This document shows positions 4,281-60,384 of a DNA stretch of 64,000 nucleotides, piece by piece. The position numbers were made by a program, and so were the translations under genes. Each line of letters begins with the position of its first letter. The stretch's first letter is position 1. The notes below the pieces were generated by a model. The model ran no database searches and was not told the origin of the DNA. It saw only the letters and a list, made by a program, of their open reading frames with translations. Origin of the DNA: Paraburkholderia sp. Tr-20389 (GTDB lineage Bacteria; Pseudomonadota; Gammaproteobacteria; Burkholderiales; Burkholderiaceae); the NCBI RefSeq assembly GCF_017104565.1, contig NZ_JAAGPD010000003.1, positions 282,769 to 346,768 on the forward strand. Reading direction: 5' to 3'.

Positions 4281-5261
4281 TCACTCGAAACGCGCGCGAT
4301 CGTGCGGCGCGTTGAAATCCTGCACGGGCCCGTGCGGCACGATGCCCGTCGGATTCACCGAGCGATGGCTCTCGTAGTAGTGCCGCTTGATGTGCTCGAA
4401 ATTCACCGTCGCCGCCACGCCGCGATGCTGATAAATATCGCGCGTGTAAGCGGACAGATTCTGATAGTCCGCGATGCGTCGCAAGTTGCACTTGAAGTGG
4501 CCGAAGTACACGGCATCGAAACGGATCAGCGTCGTGAACAGGCGGATGTCGGCTTCCGTCAGCCGGTTGCCCGTCAGGAAACGCTGCGTCGACAGTTTCT
4601 GTTCGAGCCAGTCGAGTGTCTCGAACAACGGCATGACCGCCTCTTCGTACGCGGCTTGCGTGGTCGCGAATCCCGACTTGTAGACGCCGTTGTTGACGGT
4701 GTCGTAGACGCGTGCGTTGATCGCATCGATCTCGGCGCGCAGCGGCGGCGGGTAGAAGTCGCCCGGCTCGGCGCCGATCTCGTCGAACGCCGAGTTCAGC
4801 ATGCGGATGATCTCCGACGACTCGTTGCTGACGATCGTCCGCTGATGCTTGTCCCACAGAATCGGCACCGTCACGCGGCCGCTGTAATGCGGGTCTGCCG
4901 CGACATAGACGTCGCGCAGGAACTTCGCGTGATTGAGCGCGTCGGGTACGACGCCGGGGCCTTCTGCGAAGGTCCAGCCGTCGCCGAGCATCAGCCAGTG
5001 CACGACCGACACGCTGATCATGTCCTCCAGCCCTTTCAGCGCGCGCACGATCAGCGTGCGATGCGCCCACGGACACGCGAGGCTCACATACAGGTGATAG
5101 CGTCCTGCTTCCGCTTCGAAGCCGTCGCGGCCGCTCGGACCGGCATCGCCGTCGGGCGTCACCCAGTTGCGGAAGACGGCGTCCGTGCGCACGAAGCGGC
5201 CGCCCGTCGATGCCGTGTCGTACCACTTGTCCTGCCATTGACCGTCGACTAACAAACCCAT
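4281..5261 (-). CDS. yqjG: Glutathionyl-hydroquinone reductase (xi-class GST, YqjG-like)
   Basis: 326 residues. It matches the xi-class glutathione transferases, which use a cysteine to remove glutathione from glutathionyl-hydroquinones. The catalytic motif CPWAHR has its cysteine at residue 63, the same number as E. coli YqjG. The VSVVHWLM segment, the thioredoxin-fold TVPILWDK and the SNESSEIIRML motif are all present, and the C-terminal helical domain begins near 165. GGAG lies just upstream of the ATG at 5261. The gene is divergent from a LysR regulator at 5419 across about 150 bases, which is probably its control region. The symbol rests on similarity to the E. coli family, not on a search. 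Confidence 0.88.
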   Translation of the reverse strand: MGLLVDGQWQDKWYDTASTGGRFVRTDAVFRNWVTPDGDAGPSGRDGFEAEAGRYHLYVSLACPWAHRTLIVRALKGLEDMISVSVVHWLMLGDGWTFAEGPGVVPDALNHAKFLRDVYVAADPHYSGRVTVPILWDKHQRTIVSNESSEIIRMLNSAFDEIGAEPGDFYPPPLRAEIDAINARVYDTVNNGVYKSGFATTQAAYEEAVMPLFETLDWLEQKLSTQRFLTGNRLTEADIRLFTTLIRFDAVYFGHFKCNLRRIADYQNLSAYTRDIYQHRGVAATVNFEHIKRHYYESHRSVNPTGIVPHGPVQDFNAPHDRARFE

Positions 5262-52854: not shown

Positions 52855-54027
52855 TCAGGTCGACAGAATCGTGACGAGCGCGACGGCCGAATCGCCCGCC
52901 AGTTGACCGCCGTTGTTCTCGGCGAGCGCCACCTTCGCCCCCGGCCGTTGCCGCGCGCCCGCCTTGCCGCGCAACTGCTGCGTGAGTTCGACGATCTGCG
53001 CGACACCCGTCGCGCCCACGGGATGGCCGCGCGACAGCAGACCGCCGCTCGGATTCACCGAAATGCGTCCGCCGATATCCGTATCGCCCGAACGGATCAG
53101 CTTCGGCGCATCGCCGGGTGCGCACAGGCCCAGGTTCTCGTAGTGAATGAGTTCCGCGGGCGCGGAGGCGTCGTGCAGTTCGACGACGTGCACGTCCGAC
53201 GGACCGATGCCCGCCTCTTCGTATGCGGCGTTCGCCGCGCGCACCGCGACCAGTTCGCCGGATCCATCCGCCTTCGCCGACACGATGGAACTCGCGCGGA
53301 TGAACACGGGGCGAATGTCGTGCTTCTCCGCATAGTCTTCCGAGCAGATGAATAGCGCCGCGCCGCCGTCGCCGATCGACGAGCACATGAAGAGCGTCAA
53401 CGGATCGCTGACCATCCGGCTCGCGAGCACTTCGTCGACGCTCGTTTCGTTGCGGAATTGCGCATGCGGATTCAACGCTCCCGCGCGGCGGCTCTTCACG
53501 ACGACACGCGCGAAGTCGCTCGCATCGGCGCCCGTCTTGTCCATCCACTTGCGTGCCTTCGCCGCGTAGAGATCCATGAAAAGCGAGCCCGTGCCTGTCG
53601 TCACGCCTTCGGGCAGCGGCTCTTCGAGATCGACGGCCTTCGCGAACGCGCCGAACGAGATCGCCTTGTCCTCATGCGTGAGCTTTTCGACGCCGACGAC
53701 CAGCGCGGTCTCCGATTGTCCCGAAGCGACCGAAAGCCATGCGAGATTCAACGCCGAACTGCCGGAAGCGCAGGCGTTCTCGACATTGAACATCGGCTTG
53801 CCGTCGAGCCCGGTATTGCGCAGCGACGACTGCGCGCGAATCATCTCCTGACCCGTGACGACACCCGCCGCCGCATTGCCGAAGAAGACGCGATCGACGT
53901 CGTTCACCGTGGCGCGCGCATCCTTCAATGCGAGCGACACCGCCTCTTCGGCGAGGGATTTCAGATTGCGATCGAGAAACTTGCCAAACGACGTCATGCC
54001 GACGCCGCCGATAACGACCTTGCGCAT
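52855..54027 (-). CDS. Thiolase-family protein (SCP2/lipid-transfer type)
   Basis: 390 residues. Thiolase fold with the nucleophile Cys86 in N-V-E-N-A-C-A-S-G-S-S-A, and the second active-site H in G-G-L-L-S-R-G-H-P-V-G-A-T-G near residue 340. The usual C-terminal C-x-G motif is replaced by E-N-N-G-G-Q-L-A-G-D-S-A, as in SCP2-type thiolases and related proteins, so cleavage of a beta-ketoacyl-CoA is likely but a standard biosynthetic role is not. It lies 59 bases after the MFS gene on the same strand and so belongs to the pathway described at 55-60 kb. Confidence 0.88.
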   Translation of the reverse strand: MRKVVIGGVGMTSFGKFLDRNLKSLAEEAVSLALKDARATVNDVDRVFFGNAAAGVVTGQEMIRAQSSLRNTGLDGKPMFNVENACASGSSALNLAWLSVASGQSETALVVGVEKLTHEDKAISFGAFAKAVDLEEPLPEGVTTGTGSLFMDLYAAKARKWMDKTGADASDFARVVVKSRRAGALNPHAQFRNETSVDEVLASRMVSDPLTLFMCSSIGDGGAALFICSEDYAEKHDIRPVFIRASSIVSAKADGSGELVAVRAANAAYEEAGIGPSDVHVVELHDASAPAELIHYENLGLCAPGDAPKLIRSGDTDIGGRISVNPSGGLLSRGHPVGATGVAQIVELTQQLRGKAGARQRPGAKVALAENNGGQLAGDSAVALVTILST

Positions 54028-54086
54028 TACTGCCTCCAATGATTGACCTGCTGAACTTGCGATGACCGTGCGTCGAAGTGAGGCGC

Positions 54087-55391
54087 TCAGTCGAGAATCT
54101 TTCCGCGCGTCTCCGGCATCCGCGCATAGACCACGAAGCCGACGACGCACACGGCCGCGACATAGACCCACAGGTATTGCGACAAACCGGAACTCGACAT
54201 CGCGGTGACGATATAGGGCAGCGTGCCGCCGAACAGCGCCGCCGATACCGCATAGGGAAGCGCCACACCCGTTGCCCGCACATGCGCGGGGAACTGCTCG
54301 GCCATCACCGTTGCGCAGGTCGCGGCGAATCCCGACGAGAGCAGCATGCCGATCGTGACGATGGCGGTTGCGCTCCAGAAGTCGTTGCTGAGGAAGTGCA
54401 GCGCGGGCCATGCGAACAGCGCGGAGCCGCCCGCAAAGACGAGCAGCACGGGCTTGCGGCCGATACGGTCCGACAGCATGCCGATGAACGGAATCGCGAT
54501 CAGCGAAACGACGATCGACATCACGCTTGCGCTGAATGCGTCGTGCAGCGGCAAACCCGTACGCAGATGCGCCAGCGTCGGGAACAGCACGAGCCACAGG
54601 TAGATGCACAGATTGCCCGCCATCGCGATACCGATGACGCGCAGTGCCGCGCGCCGATGTTCGCGAACGATCACGAGAAACGGATGGCGTGTGCGCTGAT
54701 GCGCGGCGACGCTCTTTCTGAATGCGTCCGTTTCGGCGACGGCGAGGCGCACCCACAGCGCGACGAAGCCGAGCAATCCGGCGATCGCGAATGCGACGCG
54801 CCAGCCCCAGGACGCCATGCCCGCATGGTCGATCATCGACGTGAGGGTCGCGCCGATCAGCGCCGCCACCAGCACGCCGGCGTTGACCGCGAAGTGTTGC
54901 CACGAGCCCGCAAAGCCGCGCCGCGACGGCGCCGACGATTCGATCAGGAACGTCGACGCCGAGCCGAACTCTCCGCCTGCCGCGAAGCCCTGAATGAGCC
55001 GTGCGAGAACGAGAATGAGCGGCGCAGCGATGCCGATCGATTCATAACCGGGGCACACGGCGATGACGAGCGAACTGCCGGCCATCAATGCGACCGACAA
55101 CGCGAGGCCGTTCTTGCGCCCGTGCCGGTCGGCATAAGCGCCGAGCAGCGCGCCGCCGATCGGCCGCATCACGAAGCCGACCGCGAACACGGCAAATGCC
55201 GAGAGCAGCGAGACGCGATCGTTGTTAGCCGGAAAGAAGTGTCGCGAGAAGAGCGCGGCGAAGGTCGCGTAGATGATCCAGTCAGTGAATTCGACGATGG
55301 TGCCGAGCGTCGCCGCGACGATGGCTTTTCGCTGCGCTCGTGTGAGCGGTGTCGCGGGTTCCTGGGCGACGCCCGGAAGGATGGTGTCCAT
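54087..55391 (-). CDS. MFS transporter of the metabolite:H+ symporter (MHS) type
   Basis: 434 residues, 12 membrane helices. The opening R-K-A-I-V-A-A-T-L-G-T-I-V-E-F-T-D-W-I-I-Y-A is the MHS motif, followed by R-P-I-G-G-A-L-L-G-A-Y-A-D-R-H-G-R-K-N-G near residue 82 (motif A) and R-L-I-Q-G-F-A-A-G-G-E-F-G near 150. Relatives import carboxylates, shikimate, betaine or aromatic acids with protons. The promoter (55527-55561) carries the same 35-bp element as the SDR and CoA-transferase genes, so it probably imports the pathway's substrate. ATG at 55391 gives the family start. Confidence 0.9.
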   Translation of the reverse strand: MDTILPGVAQEPATPLTRAQRKAIVAATLGTIVEFTDWIIYATFAALFSRHFFPANNDRVSLLSAFAVFAVGFVMRPIGGALLGAYADRHGRKNGLALSVALMAGSSLVIAVCPGYESIGIAAPLILVLARLIQGFAAGGEFGSASTFLIESSAPSRRGFAGSWQHFAVNAGVLVAALIGATLTSMIDHAGMASWGWRVAFAIAGLLGFVALWVRLAVAETDAFRKSVAAHQRTRHPFLVIVREHRRAALRVIGIAMAGNLCIYLWLVLFPTLAHLRTGLPLHDAFSASVMSIVVSLIAIPFIGMLSDRIGRKPVLLVFAGGSALFAWPALHFLSNDFWSATAIVTIGMLLSSGFAATCATVMAEQFPAHVRATGVALPYAVSAALFGGTLPYIVTAMSSSGLSQYLWVYVAAVCVVGFVVYARMPETRGKILD

Positions 55392-55526
55392 GTTGTCTCC
55401 GTGTCTCTTTGTGGTGAGCGCGCGCTGGCTGCACGACGCATGCGGAACGTGCGGGATGTATCGCCTGAAACGTGCGACACGGCGTTTGGCCCTGCACATG
55501 GACGCATCCTAGGTTTCGCGTGACAG

Positions 55527-55561
55527 GCCGCGCAAACGACATTTTTTGCGCTGTCGATTGA
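55527..55561 (-). promoter_or_regulatory. Shared 35-bp regulatory element, copy 1 (MFS gene)
   Basis: On the minus strand TCAATCGA (55554-55561), 13 variable bases, then GTCGTTTGCGCG (55529-55540). TTGCGC inside this block serves as -35, with TAGGAT 18 bases further. It matches copies at 55627 and 58301, with a single mismatch across the first 12 of the 14 conserved right-hand bases. Confidence 0.75.
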
Positions 55562-55626
55562 GTTTTTTTGCGTCGAACCCGCAGTCCGCCAACGCGCGGG
55601 CATCGAGTGTTTCGATTGAGGGAAAG

Positions 55627-55661
55627 TCAATCGAAGCCGCTAAAAAAGTCGTTTGAGCGCG
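55627..55661 (+). promoter_or_regulatory. Shared 35-bp regulatory element, copy 2 (SDR-hydratase operon)
   Basis: TCAATCGA (55627-55634), 13 bases, then GTCGTTTGAGCGCG (55648-55661). All 22 fixed bases equal those of copy 3. The end of the element is 56 bases before the SDR start codon. An inverted TCGATTGA lies just upstream at 55612-55619. TTGAGC acts as -35. Confidence 0.78.
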
Positions 55662-55717
55662 GTGCATCGTGCGCCCTAGCATGGAATGCACAGGCTTTCA
55701 TTCCACGGAGACACGCC

Positions 55718-56485
55718 ATGAACGCATCACCCCACAACCCATCCGCCGAGGTCGCCGTCGTCACGGGCGGCGCGAAGGGCATCGGCTTCGGCATCGCGGC
55801 GGCGCTCGCCCGCAGCGGCCAGCGCATCGCGCTGTTCGATCTCGATCGCGTGGCGCTCGATCAGGCTGCAAGTGCGCTCGCTGCCGAAGGTGCGGAGGTG
55901 ATCGGTCTGCCCGTCGACGTGACGGATGGCGCATCCGTGAACGACGCCGTCGAAGCCGTCGCCGGGCGCTTTGGCCGCATCGACGTGCTGGTGAACAACG
56001 CGGGCATCGTGCGCGACAAGCGGATCACGAAGATGAGCGACGACGACTGGGACGCCGTGATCGGCGTGAACCTCAAGTCGCAGTTTCTGTGTTGCCGGGC
56101 GGTGCTCACGCATATGAGCGGCGCGCGCTACGGGCGCATCGTGAACATTTCGTCGCGCGCGTGGCTGGGCGGCGTCGGACAGTCGAACTATTCGGCGGCG
56201 AAGGGCGGCGTGGTGAGCCTCACGCGCAGTCTCGCGCTCGAATGGGCGAGCGCCGGCATCACCGTGAATGCGGTCGCGCCGGGTATCGTCGATACACCGC
56301 TTTTTCAGGCATTCGATGCAGAGCTTCAGGCGCGCCTCAAGCAGTCGGTGCCCGTGCAGCGCATCGGCACGCCGGACGATATCGCGCAAGCCGTGCTGTT
56401 CTTTGCGCAGCGTGAAGCGTCGTACATCACGGGGCAGACGCTGTATGTATGCGGCGGCCGCTCGCTGTCGTCGCCTAGCGTCTGA
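55718..56485 (+). CDS. Short-chain dehydrogenase/reductase (FabG-like)
   Basis: 255 residues. Classical SDR: cofactor loop T-G-G-A-K-G-I-G-F-G-I-A near residue 15, N-N-A-G-I-V near 92, catalytic I-V-N-I-S-S-R-A-W and Y-S-A-A-K-G near 155, and N-A-V-A-P-G-I-V-D-T-P. The likely reaction is 3-hydroxyacyl-CoA or alcohol oxidation using NAD(P). The ATG at 55718 follows GGAG; the longer frame upstream is not coding by family start. It is 11 bases before the enoyl-CoA hydratase gene, forming a two-gene operon with a shared-element promoter. Confidence 0.9.
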   Translation: MNASPHNPSAEVAVVTGGAKGIGFGIAAALARSGQRIALFDLDRVALDQAASALAAEGAEVIGLPVDVTDGASVNDAVEAVAGRFGRIDVLVNNAGIVRDKRITKMSDDDWDAVIGVNLKSQFLCCRAVLTHMSGARYGRIVNISSRAWLGGVGQSNYSAAKGGVVSLTRSLALEWASAGITVNAVAPGIVDTPLFQAFDAELQARLKQSVPVQRIGTPDDIAQAVLFFAQREASYITGQTLYVCGGRSLSSPSV

Positions 56486-56496
56486 AGGAGCGGATC

Positions 56497-57300
56497 ATGA
56501 CCATTCACTACAGCGTGTCGGACCATGTGGCCATCGTGAGCCTGGATCGTCCCGAGGCCCTCAACGCACTCGACCTCGACAGCCTGAAGGCATTGCGCGC
56601 GGCGCTCGCCGAAGCGCGCGACGACGACGACGTGCGCGTGATCGTGCTCACGGGCTCGGGACACAAGTCGTTCTGCGTCGGCGCGGATCTGAAGAATACG
56701 CAGCCGCCGGCAACGAATTTCGGGTCGTCGTTCGTCCGTTCCATCGATCGCGCAGCGGCCGAAGGCATCTATGTGCGGCTGATGGATCTCGGTTCGTTGC
56801 GCATCTTCAAGCCGATCATCGGTGCGATCAATGGCTATTGTCTTGGCGGTGGGCTCGAACTCGCGCTGCAATGCGATTTGCGGATCGCATCGAGCCACGC
56901 GGTGTTCGGCTTGCCGGAAGCCGTTGTCGCGAGCATTCCGGCCGTGTGCGGCATCCAGGCGCTGCAGAAAGCGGTGCCGTCGGCGATCGCGATGAAGATG
57001 CTGCTGACGGGCTGCAAGATCGACGCGGCCTACGCGGAGCGCGTGGGGCTCGTGTCCGATGTCGTCGAACCCGCCGCGCTGATGGACACCGCACGCGAAC
57101 TCGCAGGCACGATTGCGGCGAATGGGCCGCTTGCCGTGCAGATGATCAAGAAAGTCGCTGAAACCAGCAGCAATGTGCCACTTGCACAGGCGCTCGAATT
57201 CACCGAACTGGCGTGGGGCGCCATGCGCGATTCGGAAGATCGTGTGGAAGGGCGCAAGGCGTTCGCTGAGAAGCGCCAGCCGCAATTCAAGGGTCGTTGA
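56497..57300 (+). CDS. Enoyl-CoA hydratase
   Basis: 267 residues. Crotonase fold with both catalytic regions: G-S-G-H-K-S-F-C-V-G-A-D-L-K near residue 55, G-G-G-L-E-L-A-L-Q-C-D-L-R near 115, and G-L-P-E-A near 137, so the two Glu residues of true hydratases are in place. It would hydrate an enoyl-CoA to the 3-hydroxyacyl-CoA, which the SDR before it could oxidise and the thiolase at 52855 could cleave. GAAGGAG precedes the ATG. It is convergent with the LysR gene at 57320. Confidence 0.9.
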   Translation: MTIHYSVSDHVAIVSLDRPEALNALDLDSLKALRAALAEARDDDDVRVIVLTGSGHKSFCVGADLKNTQPPATNFGSSFVRSIDRAAAEGIYVRLMDLGSLRIFKPIIGAINGYCLGGGLELALQCDLRIASSHAVFGLPEAVVASIPAVCGIQALQKAVPSAIAMKMLLTGCKIDAAYAERVGLVSDVVEPAALMDTARELAGTIAANGPLAVQMIKKVAETSSNVPLAQALEFTELAWGAMRDSEDRVEGRKAFAEKRQPQFKGR

Positions 57301-57319
57301 ACGGCGTGCGGTGTGGCGA

Positions 57320-58219
57320 TCAGCTACGCGCTTCGCCGACGGAGAGCAGCCAGTTGCGGAACGCGGCGAACTCGGGATTCGACAGATGGTCGCGCGGATA
57401 GATCAGGTAGTAAGTGAACGCACCCAGATCGAGCACGAAGGAAAAGGGCGTCACCAGCGTGCCGTCGCGCAGTTGATCGGCGACGAGCACGCGCTGCGCC
57501 ATCGCGACGCCGACGCCTTGCGTCGCTGCGAAGTACGCGAGGATGGAGCTTTCGTAGCTGAGACCGCTCAACGGATTGACGCCGCGCACGCCGGCCGCGT
57601 CGAGCCATTTGGCCCAGTCCTCGCGGCGCGCCAGCGAATGCAGCAGCGGCACGTTGCGCAGCGATTCGGGTGTGGCGTCGCTAAGTTCGGGATGCGCGCG
57701 CAGAAACGCCGGACTGCACACGGGCACGAGTTCGTTCGGTACGAGGCGGTCATGACCGACATCCGATGACGGCGCATGCGACAGGCGGATCGCCGCATCG
57801 ACGTCTTCCGTATTGAAGTCGACGGGTTGCAATGAGGTCGTGAGACTGACTTCGATGTCGGGATGCTCGCGATGAAACGCGGACAGACGCGGCAGCAGCC
57901 AGTTCATCGAGAACGTCGTGTAGCCGCGAATCTTGAGCGTGCGGCGGCGGCGCGCTTCCGTGAGGTTGATCGTCGCGGTGCGCATCGTTTCGAAGCCTCG
58001 CACGATGTCGGCGAGGTAACGCTCCCCCATCGGCGTCAGCGCGATCGCGCGATGTCCGCGTTCGAACAGCAGCACGCCGAGCTGATCTTCCAGCAGTTTG
58101 ATTTGCCGGCTGACGGCCGCGGGCGTGACGTTGAGTTCGTTCGCGGCGAGCTGCACGCTGAGCAGTCTGCCGCAGACCTCGAAGGCGCGCAGCGCGTTGA
58201 GTGACGGAAGGGTTCGCAT
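57320..58219 (-). CDS. LysR-family regulator (GcvA-like)
   Basis: 299 residues. The N-terminus R-T-L-P-S-L-N-A-L-R-A-F-E-V-C-G-R-L-L-S-V-Q-L-A-A-N-E-L-N-V-T-P-A-A-V-S-R-Q-I-K-L-L-E and the effector domain with V-D-A-A-I-R-L-S-H and R-E-D-W-A-K-W-L resemble the GcvA/AmpR subgroup. It is divergent from the CoA-transferase gene, with the shared element copy 3 in between, and convergent with the hydratase gene. It is the only regulator in the pathway block, so it is the best candidate to bind the three 35-bp elements. Effector probably a pathway acid or CoA ester. Confidence 0.9.
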   Translation of the reverse strand: MRTLPSLNALRAFEVCGRLLSVQLAANELNVTPAAVSRQIKLLEDQLGVLLFERGHRAIALTPMGERYLADIVRGFETMRTATINLTEARRRRTLKIRGYTTFSMNWLLPRLSAFHREHPDIEVSLTTSLQPVDFNTEDVDAAIRLSHAPSSDVGHDRLVPNELVPVCSPAFLRAHPELSDATPESLRNVPLLHSLARREDWAKWLDAAGVRGVNPLSGLSYESSILAYFAATQGVGVAMAQRVLVADQLRDGTLVTPFSFVLDLGAFTYYLIYPRDHLSNPEFAAFRNWLLSVGEARS

Positions 58220-58300
58220 CCAAAAATGGTAGCACGCGCATCGCGCGGCGCATGCCGGGAAAGCTACGTAGAAAGGCGCTTGCGTTCACTTCAGCAAAAC

Positions 58301-58335
58301 TCAATCGAGCGGGCAGGAAATGTCGTTTGAGCGCG
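58301..58335 (+). promoter_or_regulatory. Shared 35-bp regulatory element, copy 3 (CoA-transferase gene)
   Basis: TCAATCGA (58301-58308), 13 bases, then GTCGTTTGAGCGCG (58322-58335), equal to copy 2 at all 22 fixed bases. It ends 57 bases before the CoA-transferase start. TTGAGC (58327-58332) and TATCGT (58350-58355), 17 bases apart, would form the promoter. Confidence 0.78.
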
Positions 58336-58392
58336 TCTCCAACGCGCCGTATCGTTGGTTCAAAGCAATCTGTGAGACTCAAGGAGACAACC

Positions 58393-60384
58393 ATGCTGAA
58401 CGGTGTGCGAATTCTGGTCCGGGGTGCGCGCGACGCGCTCAGGCTCGGCGCGACGCTGCTCGAACGTGCGGGCGCGCAGGTGACGTTCGGCGAAGCGCAG
58501 CCGTCGGACGGATTCGCGTATGACGTGATCGTCGTTTCGTCGGACGTGAGTCCGCCGAGCGAGCGAAGCACGATCGCGGAGCTGAAGGCGGCGGGCGCGC
58601 ATATCGTGTGCGACATCACTGCTACCGGGCCGCACGGTGCGCGCGCGGGTATGCGCGGGACCGACGCGCAGATTCAGGCGATCAGCGGACTGATGGACAC
58701 CACGGGCTTTGCGCATGGCGAGCCCGCGCGGATCGGCGTGCCGTTCACGGAGATTTCGGCGGCGCTCTATGCGTGCGCCGCGATTGCGGCGGCCGTTCGT
58801 GTGAAGCGTTTGCGCGGCATCGTGCAGAACATCGACGTGACGCTGTTCGGTTGCGCGGCCAGTGCGCTCACGACGTTTCTGCCCACGGCATTTGCGCAAG
58901 GTACGGTGGGCCGCGTCGGCAATCGGCATCCTGCGTGCGCGCCCTGGAACGCATACGTGACGCGCGACGGCTGGATACTCATCTGCACCAGCACGGAAGA
59001 ACAATGGCGCAAGATCAAAAGCGCGGCCCGCGTGCCGCCACTCGACGATCCGCGCTTCGCGACCTTGCGCGGACGTGTCGCGAACGTCGATGAACTCGAT
59101 GCGCTGATCGAGACATGGACTGCCACGCTGTCGACGGAGGAATGCTTGCAGTTGTGCGAGCAGATCGGCGTCGCGGCCGGACCGATCGTGTCCGTCGCGG
59201 AGTTGAGCAGCGAGCCGAATTTCCGCACGCGGCATGCGGATGCGGCGATGCAGATCGACACGCAAGGCATCGATGGCGACACGTATCGCCGGGTGCCGAT
59301 CTTCAACACGTCGCGTCTGACGAAGGACACCTGCGCTGCGCCGCGCATGAGCACGAGCGTGGACCGCACCGCGTACGGACAGCATACGGGTCCGCTTGCC
59401 GGCATCAAGGTCGTCGAGATCGGCCAGTACACGACGGCCCCGCTCGTCGGCAAGCACCTTGCGGCGCTTGGTGCGGAAGTCGTGAAGATCGAGCCGCCCG
59501 ACGGCGAAGTGGCGCGTTCATGGACGCCGGGCCAGGCGGGGACGAGCTACTTTTTCGTGCTCAACAACACCGACAAGCAGACCATCGCGCTCGATCTGAA
59601 GCAGGAAGCCGACCGTGCTCATCTGAGTGGGCTGCTCGCCGATGCGGATGTCCTCGTCGAGAACCTGCGTCCGGGTGCGCTCGCAAAGCTCGGCTTCGAT
59701 CGCGAAACGCTGGGCAAGATCAATCCGCGTCTGATCTATTGTTCGATTTCAGGTTTTGGCATCGCGTCCGCATATCCGGCAAGGCCCGCATTCGACACCG
59801 TGATTCAGGCGATGGGCGGGCTGATGGACCTGACGCGCAGCGCCGGCGAGCCGGTGAAGCTAGGCGCGTCGGGCGCCGACATTCTCGGGGGGCAGGCTGC
59901 GCTGCTCGCGATCGTCTCGTGCCTTGCGGATCCGGCGCGGGAGGACGGGACGTTCGTCGAAATATCGATGCAGGACGTGGCCGCGTGGTGTGCGCTGTTT
60001 GCGTCGGGCAATCGGGAGCCGCAGGGGATCGCGGTCGCGTGCATCGACGGTCATGTGTGGCTCGAAAGCGATCGACATGCCGATGCGGCGGCGCTCGCGG
60101 TTCGTGCACGCGATGCGCGATGCAGCATGCTGACGCGCGAGGCGGCAGTGACGGCGCTGGCGAACGCGGGTATCAGCGCAGTGCCGGTGGCACGCGTGCA
60201 TGAACTGGTCGAAGACGGCAATTTTCTCGCAGACATGCTGAGCGTCGCGCGCGACGGGAGCGGGGCATTCTGGCCCGTCCTCAAGGTGCCGTACCGGTTG
60301 TCGCGCACGCCCGCGCGCGTACGCGCCGTGCCGGGCGCGCCCACGCGAACGGTCTCGGGCTGCTTCGCGACGTTCGCCGTCTGA
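58393..60384 (+). CDS. Class III (CaiB/BaiF-type) CoA-transferase with two domains
   Basis: 663 residues, about 1.6 times a normal member. Residues about 1-330 are a degenerate CaiB-like half (L-N-G-V-R-I-L-V-R-G-A-R-D opening, R-V-G-N-R-H-P-A-C-A-P-W-N-A-Y near 172) and residues about 335-663 are a complete one: L-A-G-I-K-V-V-E-I-G-Q-Y-T-T-A-P, V-K-I-E-P-P-D-G-E-V-A-R, L-V-E-N-L-R-P-G and the catalytic-Asp segment K-L-G-A-S-G-A-D-I-L-G-G near 495. It would move CoA from one acyl-CoA to the free substrate acid, replacing a ligase. AAGGAG precedes the ATG; the promoter carries copy 3 of the shared element. Confidence 0.88.
   Translation: MLNGVRILVRGARDALRLGATLLERAGAQVTFGEAQPSDGFAYDVIVVSSDVSPPSERSTIAELKAAGAHIVCDITATGPHGARAGMRGTDAQIQAISGLMDTTGFAHGEPARIGVPFTEISAALYACAAIAAAVRVKRLRGIVQNIDVTLFGCAASALTTFLPTAFAQGTVGRVGNRHPACAPWNAYVTRDGWILICTSTEEQWRKIKSAARVPPLDDPRFATLRGRVANVDELDALIETWTATLSTEECLQLCEQIGVAAGPIVSVAELSSEPNFRTRHADAAMQIDTQGIDGDTYRRVPIFNTSRLTKDTCAAPRMSTSVDRTAYGQHTGPLAGIKVVEIGQYTTAPLVGKHLAALGAEVVKIEPPDGEVARSWTPGQAGTSYFFVLNNTDKQTIALDLKQEADRAHLSGLLADADVLVENLRPGALAKLGFDRETLGKINPRLIYCSISGFGIASAYPARPAFDTVIQAMGGLMDLTRSAGEPVKLGASGADILGGQAALLAIVSCLADPAREDGTFVEISMQDVAAWCALFASGNREPQGIAVACIDGHVWLESDRHADAAALAVRARDARCSMLTREAAVTALANAGISAVPVARVHELVEDGNFLADMLSVARDGSGAFWPVLKVPYRLSRTPARVRAVPGAPTRTVSGCFATFAV

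Follow-up and report, generated by a model that had tools for sequence, protein, structure and literature searches.

A probable three-part operator of a GcvA-like LysR regulator at the promoters of an acyl-CoA pathway cluster in Paraburkholderia

The genome of Paraburkholderia sp. Tr-20389 (assembly GCF_017104565.1) contains a cluster of acyl-CoA pathway genes in which a promoter element of the form TCAATCGA-N13-GTCGTTTG recurs three times, ahead of an MFS transporter gene that probably forms an operon with a thiolase gene (copy 1), of an operon for an SDR oxidoreductase and an enoyl-CoA hydratase (copy 2), and of a CoA-transferase gene (copy 3). The cluster lies in a stretch of 64,000 nucleotides of contig NZ_JAAGPD010000003.1 (positions 282,769 to 346,768, forward strand), which was analysed as a whole and is called the window here. 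Sequence comparisons make the GcvA-like LysR-type regulator encoded at 57320–58219 in the same cluster the very probable reader of the element, which would be its operator. The observations behind this assignment are the repeats, their spacing and conservation, the predicted promoter geometry, and the co-occurrence of the regulator gene with the operator. From them we infer a regulon in which the MFS-thiolase, SDR-hydratase and CoA-transferase units would stand under a GcvA-like LysR activator, activation being a further step beyond the operator assignment.

The window holds three perfect matches to the pattern, each with 0 mismatches (Table 1), at the places and on the strands given in a preliminary description of this DNA. 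When up to three mismatches are allowed, six matches appear, namely the three copies and their mirror images, against an average of 0.92 and a maximum of 3 in shuffled windows. The element is an imperfect dyad, and the opposite strand of each copy is also matched, with three mismatches and one base off. The complete genome (8,997,065 bases) contains exactly three perfect matches, all at this cluster, where chance at the window's composition would give 0.0012 in 9.0 Mb; imperfect matches comprise two places with two mismatches and others listed with three. The genome-wide pattern search proposed earlier, in which scattered matches would have spoken against the idea, returned perfect matches at the cluster only and left it standing. 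An origin of the repeats in chance or composition was ruled out by the window shuffles, the genome scan and the expectation of 0.0012. An operator profile (59 positions, built from 57 sites) recovers the same three sites in this genome at E <= 3e-13, the next match having an E of 0.08. A global regulon was ruled out as well: there is no fourth site in the genome, and in an order-wide sample (300 genomes, 134 genera; E <= 0.001) the profile matches in just two genomes, this one and one Cupriavidus-like genome.

Copies 2 and 3 are identical at all 22 fixed bases, as had been reported, and copy 1 shares 19 of the 22 with either. The 13-base centre had been described as differing between the copies, which it does; it is not free, however, as 5–8 of the 13 bases agree, and a CGC and an A-tract recur in it across loci. 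The distances to the start codons given earlier for copy 2 (56 nt, ATG 55718) and copy 3 (57 nt, ATG 58393) are correct. Copy 1 lies 135 nt from the start of the MFS gene (ATG 55391), and the geometry of the element is therefore fixed relative to the promoter and not to the start codon.

The repeats and spacing of the preliminary description hold, but its boundaries missed a third half-site, TCGATTGA, 15 bp upstream of TCAATCGA, so that the element extends about 15 bp further upstream. Sites with at most one mismatch were aligned without gaps, and matches to TCGATTGA were counted upstream of TCAATCGA. Offset -15 is the peak in every promoter class taken separately, with scores of 6.63 of 8 for the SDR (27 promoters), 4.88 of 8 for the MFS (26) and 4.57 of 8 for the CoA-transferase class (14), compared with an average of about 2. 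In copy 2, the upstream and middle half-sites are perfect inverted repeats of each other over 9 bp, separated by 7 bp (TGA-N7-TCA, that is, T-N11-A). The corresponding half-sites of the other copies are degenerate: TCACTTCA in copy 3, where T-N11-A is present as TCA-N7-TCA, and TCGACGCA in copy 1. Most Cupriavidus-like sites carry TTGA-N7-TCAA. The MFS operon of C. glathei (L078), a locus with a LysR of 79% identity, keeps an intact upstream half-site TCGATTGA next to a decayed middle one.

The downstream end of the element had been read as a -35 hexamer, TTG(A/C)GC, and this reading gains support from a conserved -10 sequence at a spacing of 16–17 bp in 70 of 70 sites (SDR 28/28, MFS 26/26, CoA-transferase 16/16, the last at 17 bp throughout; four mirror-image rows are excluded from the count). 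The -10 hexamer is specific to the promoter class, being CTAGCA for SDR, CTA(G/C)GA for MFS and TATCGT for CoA-transferase promoters, with 5 or 6 of 6 bases matching the class; since it was sought by its class sequence, the independent part of this result is the constancy of the spacing. With the transcript start predicted on the assumption that +1 lies 7 nt past the -10, the half-sites are centred at -72.5, -57.5 and -35.5, and the recognition dyad at -65.0. LysR regulators are described as having a recognition site at -65 (PMC5603801 and PMC8407307) and an activation site at -35 (PMC5603801). A dyad with T-N11-A near -65, a feature of membership in this family, is found in copy 2, and T-N11-A also in copy 3. 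The half-site TCGTTTGA, at -35.5 from the predicted start, would be a second site near -35, as in LysR-type promoters, and the two predicted positions together would give the textbook arrangement of LysR recognition and activation sites.

The distribution of the operator follows that of the regulator gene. In the genus sample (145 genomes), an ortholog of the LysR gene was found in 16 (81–100% identity, with G339 carrying a further one at 79%), and the profile (E <= 0.001) gave 47 matches in exactly those 16 of 16 genomes and none in the 129 without LysR; nine of the 16 had supplied training sites for the profile and seven had not. A second genus (60 genomes) is termed Cupriavidus-like after Cupriavidus campinensis MJ1, which has the same gene order, the operator and a LysR of 79% identity. 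Here the ortholog (E <= 1e-100) was found in 32 genomes and the operator in 33, with 32 shared, so that the operator is present in 32 of 32 genomes with LysR versus 1 of 28 without. Once the 11 training genomes are set aside, 21 genomes have both, one has the operator only and 27 have neither (Fisher p 6e-13, uncorrected for the relatedness of the genomes). Taken over the 205 genomes of the two genera, 49 bear the operator and 48 of these have a GcvA-like LysR ortholog as well, a nearly one-to-one co-occurrence that favours the LysR protein at 57320 as the predicted reader, as first proposed. Genome G706 has a second LysR (61%) in a pathway copy of its own, with an operator of its own. In a family sample (299 genomes), the LysR gene (E <= 1e-100) was found in 11 genomes, 10 of which carry elements at the cluster with at most one mismatch; G256 (79% LysR) showed none at the cluster at that threshold. 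Regulators of 79–81% identity accompany diverged operators ahead of the same genes.

Conservation was assessed over 30 distinct loci with LysR from Paraburkholderia and Caballeronia; the window is one of them, and L122, a repeat of L066, is not counted separately. With as many as two mismatches allowed, 28 of the 30 loci retain the SDR copy, 26 the MFS copy and 16 the CoA-transferase copy. In L067 the contig ends before the MFS-SDR region, the sites of L078 have three mismatches, and the MFS site is degenerate in L065 and L080. In locus L075 (P. ginsengiterrae) the genes for thiolase, SDR, hydratase and CoA-transferase stand in line, with neither a LysR ortholog nor a profile match at E <= 1 in the stretch examined; judged on that stretch, it is a natural LysR-less control. 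L082 and L083 hold only fragments of the CoA-transferase gene (L083 also part of the thiolase gene) and are little informative.

Several findings weigh against the assignment. Of 29 related loci, 13 lack the CoA-transferase copy; in these, the interval between the LysR and CoA-transferase genes is about 60–90 bp and no site has fewer than five mismatches, so that the sharing of the element by three promoters does not extend to every relative. The literal T-N11-A fails in copy 1, which is without the T, and the transcript start is a prediction, so that the -65 and -35 positions are predicted ones. At up to one mismatch, the 145 genomes of the genus gave 61 matches, of which 43 fall at the cluster (15 genomes) and 18 are strays, versus 6 for a reversed-pattern control; none of the 18 reaches E 0.001 with the operator profile. 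The 299 genomes of the family sample gave 58 matches: 18 belong to the cluster, 14 to the Cupriavidus-like genus, where all were read, and 26 to other places, the last compared with 16 for the control. Because the regulator gene is usually found in the cluster that it would control, the co-occurrence is partly linkage, which weakens it as an argument in the first genus. This objection is weakened by two genomes of the Cupriavidus-like genus, G286 and G231, in which the MFS operator is far from both the thiolase-operon operator (176 and 291 kb) and the sole LysR ortholog detected (182 and 285 kb); the regulator would therefore act in trans. Among 23 Cupriavidus-like stretches read around operator matches, 18 have the operator ahead of pathway genes. 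These are either an MFS gene, accompanied where seen by a divergent dehydrogenase pair (identified as such in L169 and in L171), or a thiolase-SDR-hydratase operon, accompanied in the stretches checked for them by DUF35 and CoA-transferase genes. The other five (L207–L210, L212) have an operator-like site without adjoining pathway genes. Finally, a different LysR gene is found near the operator in 9 of 24 such stretches (the 23 and the named stretch L226), one of these genes being a fragment at the end of its stretch. The different LysR proteins are 77–100% alike among themselves and 27–30% identical to that of the window. G710, the sole genome with the operator but no GcvA-like ortholog, has one of them near its operator; the thiolase-SDR-hydratase operon is missing at that place, and G710 may be a relic or a pointer to the other LysR as the reader.

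These last cases could be taken to mean that another regulator reads the dyad, for example a TetR, IclR, MarR or different LysR protein, and that the LysR of the cluster has another target. A dyad alone is not specific to one regulator family, and in C. glathei a 46% relative of the different LysR lies about 1.1 kb from the MFS operator. The supposition is nevertheless improbable in view of the 48 of 49 operator-bearing genomes with a GcvA-like ortholog and of the -65/-35 layout, a LysR signature. Moreover, a search for the different LysR at 1e-20 found nothing in the 64-kb window and nothing in 31 of 34 related loci, the three matched loci being L078 (46%), L120 (31%) and L079 (29%), and at 1e-60 there is no match beside the five MFS operators of the Cupriavidus-like genus.

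With the GcvA-like LysR as the probable reader, the sign of its action can be considered. The downstream half-site overlaps the -35 hexamer, where a bound dimer could block polymerase, and LysR proteins can repress without inducer, according to PMC8407307; the protein might thus be mainly a repressor that is released from the same sites by its inducer. We regard this as unlikely, since a promoter that depends on an activator would fit both the layout, with its recognition and activation sites, and the -10 sequences, which depart from consensus (CTAGCA, CTAGGA, TATCGT). A quite separate explanation, for which the agreement between copies 2 and 3 at every one of the 22 fixed bases might be cited, is that the copies stem from recent duplication of one promoter and are not selected operators. 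There is next to no probability left for it: the 40-bp flanks of these copies agree at 14 of 40 positions upstream and 7 of 40 downstream, the class-specific -10 sequences are kept across Paraburkholderia and Caballeronia loci, and the three copies are conserved over related loci, the observation that had been set to decide against duplication. The same conclusion had been drawn in the preliminary description.

On the activator reading, each operator would comprise three half-sites, all read by the same LysR protein. The upstream pair, (TCGA)TTGA-N7-TCAA(TCGA), centred at the predicted -65, would be the recognition site, and the third half-site, at -35, the activation site. A LysR tetramer would span both, and the A-tract between them probably aids DNA bending. 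Binding of a pathway acid or its CoA ester, the putative inducer, would let the downstream dimer settle on the -35 half-site, upon which RNA polymerase could be recruited to the MFS-thiolase, SDR-hydratase and CoA-transferase promoters together. Binding, activation, inducer and pathway all enter this scheme as predictions. It would be a LysR switch of a well-known type; the unusual clarity of its three-part site sets it apart, and the site is seen again in related genera. All this has the look of an ordinary, well-defined LysR regulon with an operator and a pathway that are new as far as found: no publication on this cluster or operator turned up in the open-access collection searched, which omits most subscription papers. 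A LysR regulator without annotation would thereby gain a defined operator, a regulon and a testable pathway, and the assignment would extend to Caballeronia and Cupriavidus.

The divergent operators seem to be spaced in a regular way. A divergent operator pair is present in 33 of the 38 loci given, and in 32 of these pairs the start-to-start distance is 50, 52, 60, 62, 71, 83–85 or 93–95 bp; in the remaining one (L167) it is 106 bp, measured by hand on the sequence, with a profile match as the partner. Grouped by eye into six classes, the distances found in Paraburkholderia, Caballeronia and the Cupriavidus-like genus differ by increments of about 11 bp. Random sets were as regular as the six classes in 54–131 of 30,000 cases (107–213 of 20,000 with a minimum gap), and as regular as the five classes without 106 bp in 240–474 of 40,000 cases (323–566 of 20,000 with a minimum gap); the regularity was spotted only in hindsight, in loci that are related to one another. 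The spacing suggests same-face contact between two bound LysR tetramers, and, as read from the coordinates, two operators at 50 bp would share one upstream half-site. We propose tentatively, as a reading less likely than not, that the divergent operators lie on the same helix face and that two LysR tetramers, or one assembly sharing the upstream half-site, bridge the intergenic region and fire the uptake and degradation promoters as one unit, the activation half-site being specified in sequence and conserved like the recognition site. If real, the phased spacing would make contact between neighbouring LysR tetramers testable. Examples of the spacing can be seen at 55533–55655 of the window and in L068, L070, L076, L118, L159, L156 and L167.

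The genes of the cluster are listed with the elements in Table 1. The regulator has the domains HTH_1 (PF00126, 2.7e-18) and LysR_substrate (PF03466, 4.6e-32), and its gene is divergent from the CoA-transferase gene, with copy 3 in between. The thiolase gene follows the MFS gene by 59 nt on the same strand and is therefore probably co-transcribed with it from copy 1. The steps present lead us to infer a pathway of acid uptake, CoA transfer, hydration, oxidation and thiolysis. None of the six genes examined at 52855–60384 encodes an acyl-CoA dehydrogenase, and because of this the substrate is likely an already unsaturated carboxylic acid.

Table 1. Predicted operator parts, promoters and genes of the cluster (positions in the window)
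Feature	Position	Strand	Remarks
Thiolase	52855..54027	-	390 amino acids; 59 nt behind the MFS gene, same strand
MFS metabolite:H+ symporter	54087..55391	-	434 amino acids; predicted target of copy 1
Predicted MFS promoter	55507..55535	-	-35 TTGCGC, 17-bp spacer, -10 CTAGGA
Copy 1, MFS-thiolase operon	55533..55561	-	0 mismatches
Degenerate third half-site TCGACGCA of copy 1	55569..55576	-	offset -15 peak of the MFS class
Third (upstream) half-site TCGATTGA of copy 2	55612..55619	+	inverted repeat with 55627-55634; offset -15 peak
Copy 2, SDR-hydratase operon	55627..55655	+	0 mismatches
Parts of copy 2	55627-55634; 55648-55656	+	middle half-site TCAATCGA; CGC/A-tract centre; downstream half-site (G)TCGTTTG(A)
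Predicted SDR promoter	55653..55681	+	-35 TTGAGC 55653-55658, 17-bp spacer, -10 CTAGCA 55676-55681
SDR oxidoreductase	55718..56485	+	255 amino acids; predicted target of copy 2
Enoyl-CoA hydratase	56497..57300	+	267 amino acids; same operon as SDR
LysR-type regulator, GcvA-like	57320..58219	-	299 amino acids; predicted reader; Pfam HTH_1 and LysR_substrate
Degenerate third half-site TCACTTCA of copy 3	58286..58293	+	T-N11-A present as TCA-N7-TCA
Copy 3, CoA-transferase gene	58301..58329	+	0 mismatches; between divergent LysR and CoA-transferase genes
Predicted CoA-transferase promoter	58327..58355	+	-35 TTGAGC, 17-bp spacer, -10 TATCGT
Family III CoA-transferase	58393..60384	+	663 amino acids; two-domain fusion; predicted target of copy 3

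Benzylsuccinate beta-oxidation by the bbs pathway proceeds in the order of CoA-transferase, hydratase, SDR and thiolase steps. The cluster resembles bbs in these steps and in its solved matches: the best one for the thiolase is the benzoylsuccinyl-CoA thiolase subunit 7pxp, and those of the CoA-transferase include, among others, the benzylsuccinate CoA-transferase 9fn0. It differs in that the CoA-transferase is one fused chain, an acyl-CoA dehydrogenase is missing among the six genes, and the thiolase scores 255 against a cut-off of 750 with the BbsB model, which places it outside the bbs family. Among the solved matches listed, the N-terminal half of the CoA-transferase is the best-matching stretch for the benzylsuccinate CoA-transferase subunit only. 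As for the regulator, GcvA is both its closest curated family and, with 8y6u, a glycine cleavage system transcriptional activator, its closest solved sequence; its GcvA model score of 284.8 bits lies under the cut-off of 288, making it GcvA-like and below curated GcvA membership, and the six genes examined at the locus are not glycine cleavage genes.

At the level of the regulon, a close parallel is PnpR/PnpM of Pseudomonas WBC-3 (PMC5603801), where one LysR protein likewise serves several promoters of one catabolic cluster through a T-N11-A recognition site near -65 and an activation site near -35. The site there is GTT-N11-AAC, unlike the one found here, and the activation site of LysR regulators is described in that paper as having no identified conserved motif, whereas few parts of the present operator are conserved as well as the -35 half-site GTCGTTTG. 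An activation site specified in sequence and conserved in this way would make models of LysR activation testable by half-site swaps. The CatR/CatM/BenM-type regulons of Betaproteobacteria (PMC6449761) are similar in having a LysR gene divergent from its target and a T-N11-A palindrome, and they were reconstructed by footprinting, as was done here; their motif, AkACC-N5-GGTAT, is a different one, and neither GcvA nor caiB is mentioned in the main text of that paper.

Related sites are found with more distant regulators. A sister LysR group of 47–50% identity comprises eight loci, five of which (L139, L140, L141, L144 and L151; 49–50%) carry a site of the form TTAA-N7-TCAA-N17-GTCGATTG directly behind the LysR gene; L142, L143 and L152 have no such site. 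A tree of the LysR proteins has three deep branches. A CoA-transferase-like gene follows the sister site in two of three surroundings checked (L174, L175) and was not seen in the third (L173), and the operator profile has no match in L173–L175. A weak profile match (1e-4) at 4944–4994 of L176 falls in a locus with another LysR (51%).

Some further observations concern individual loci. In Caballeronia L068–L070, L072–L074, L077, L079 and L081, the interval between the LysR and CoA-transferase genes is about 60 bp and the operator is absent. The second, different LysR of the Cupriavidus-like genus was found in L157, L158, L160, L164, L166 and L212–L215, near the operator of the thiolase operon, and in L212 it is present although that operon is gone. 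In L078, a third place is matched by the profile at 2e-4. A weaker operator-like site occurs at a remote locus at about 6014 of L207, with counterparts in L208 and L209; in L207 it stands ahead of a set of genes for a molybdenum hydroxylase (Fer2, FAD, MoCo), perhaps an upstream step of the same pathway.

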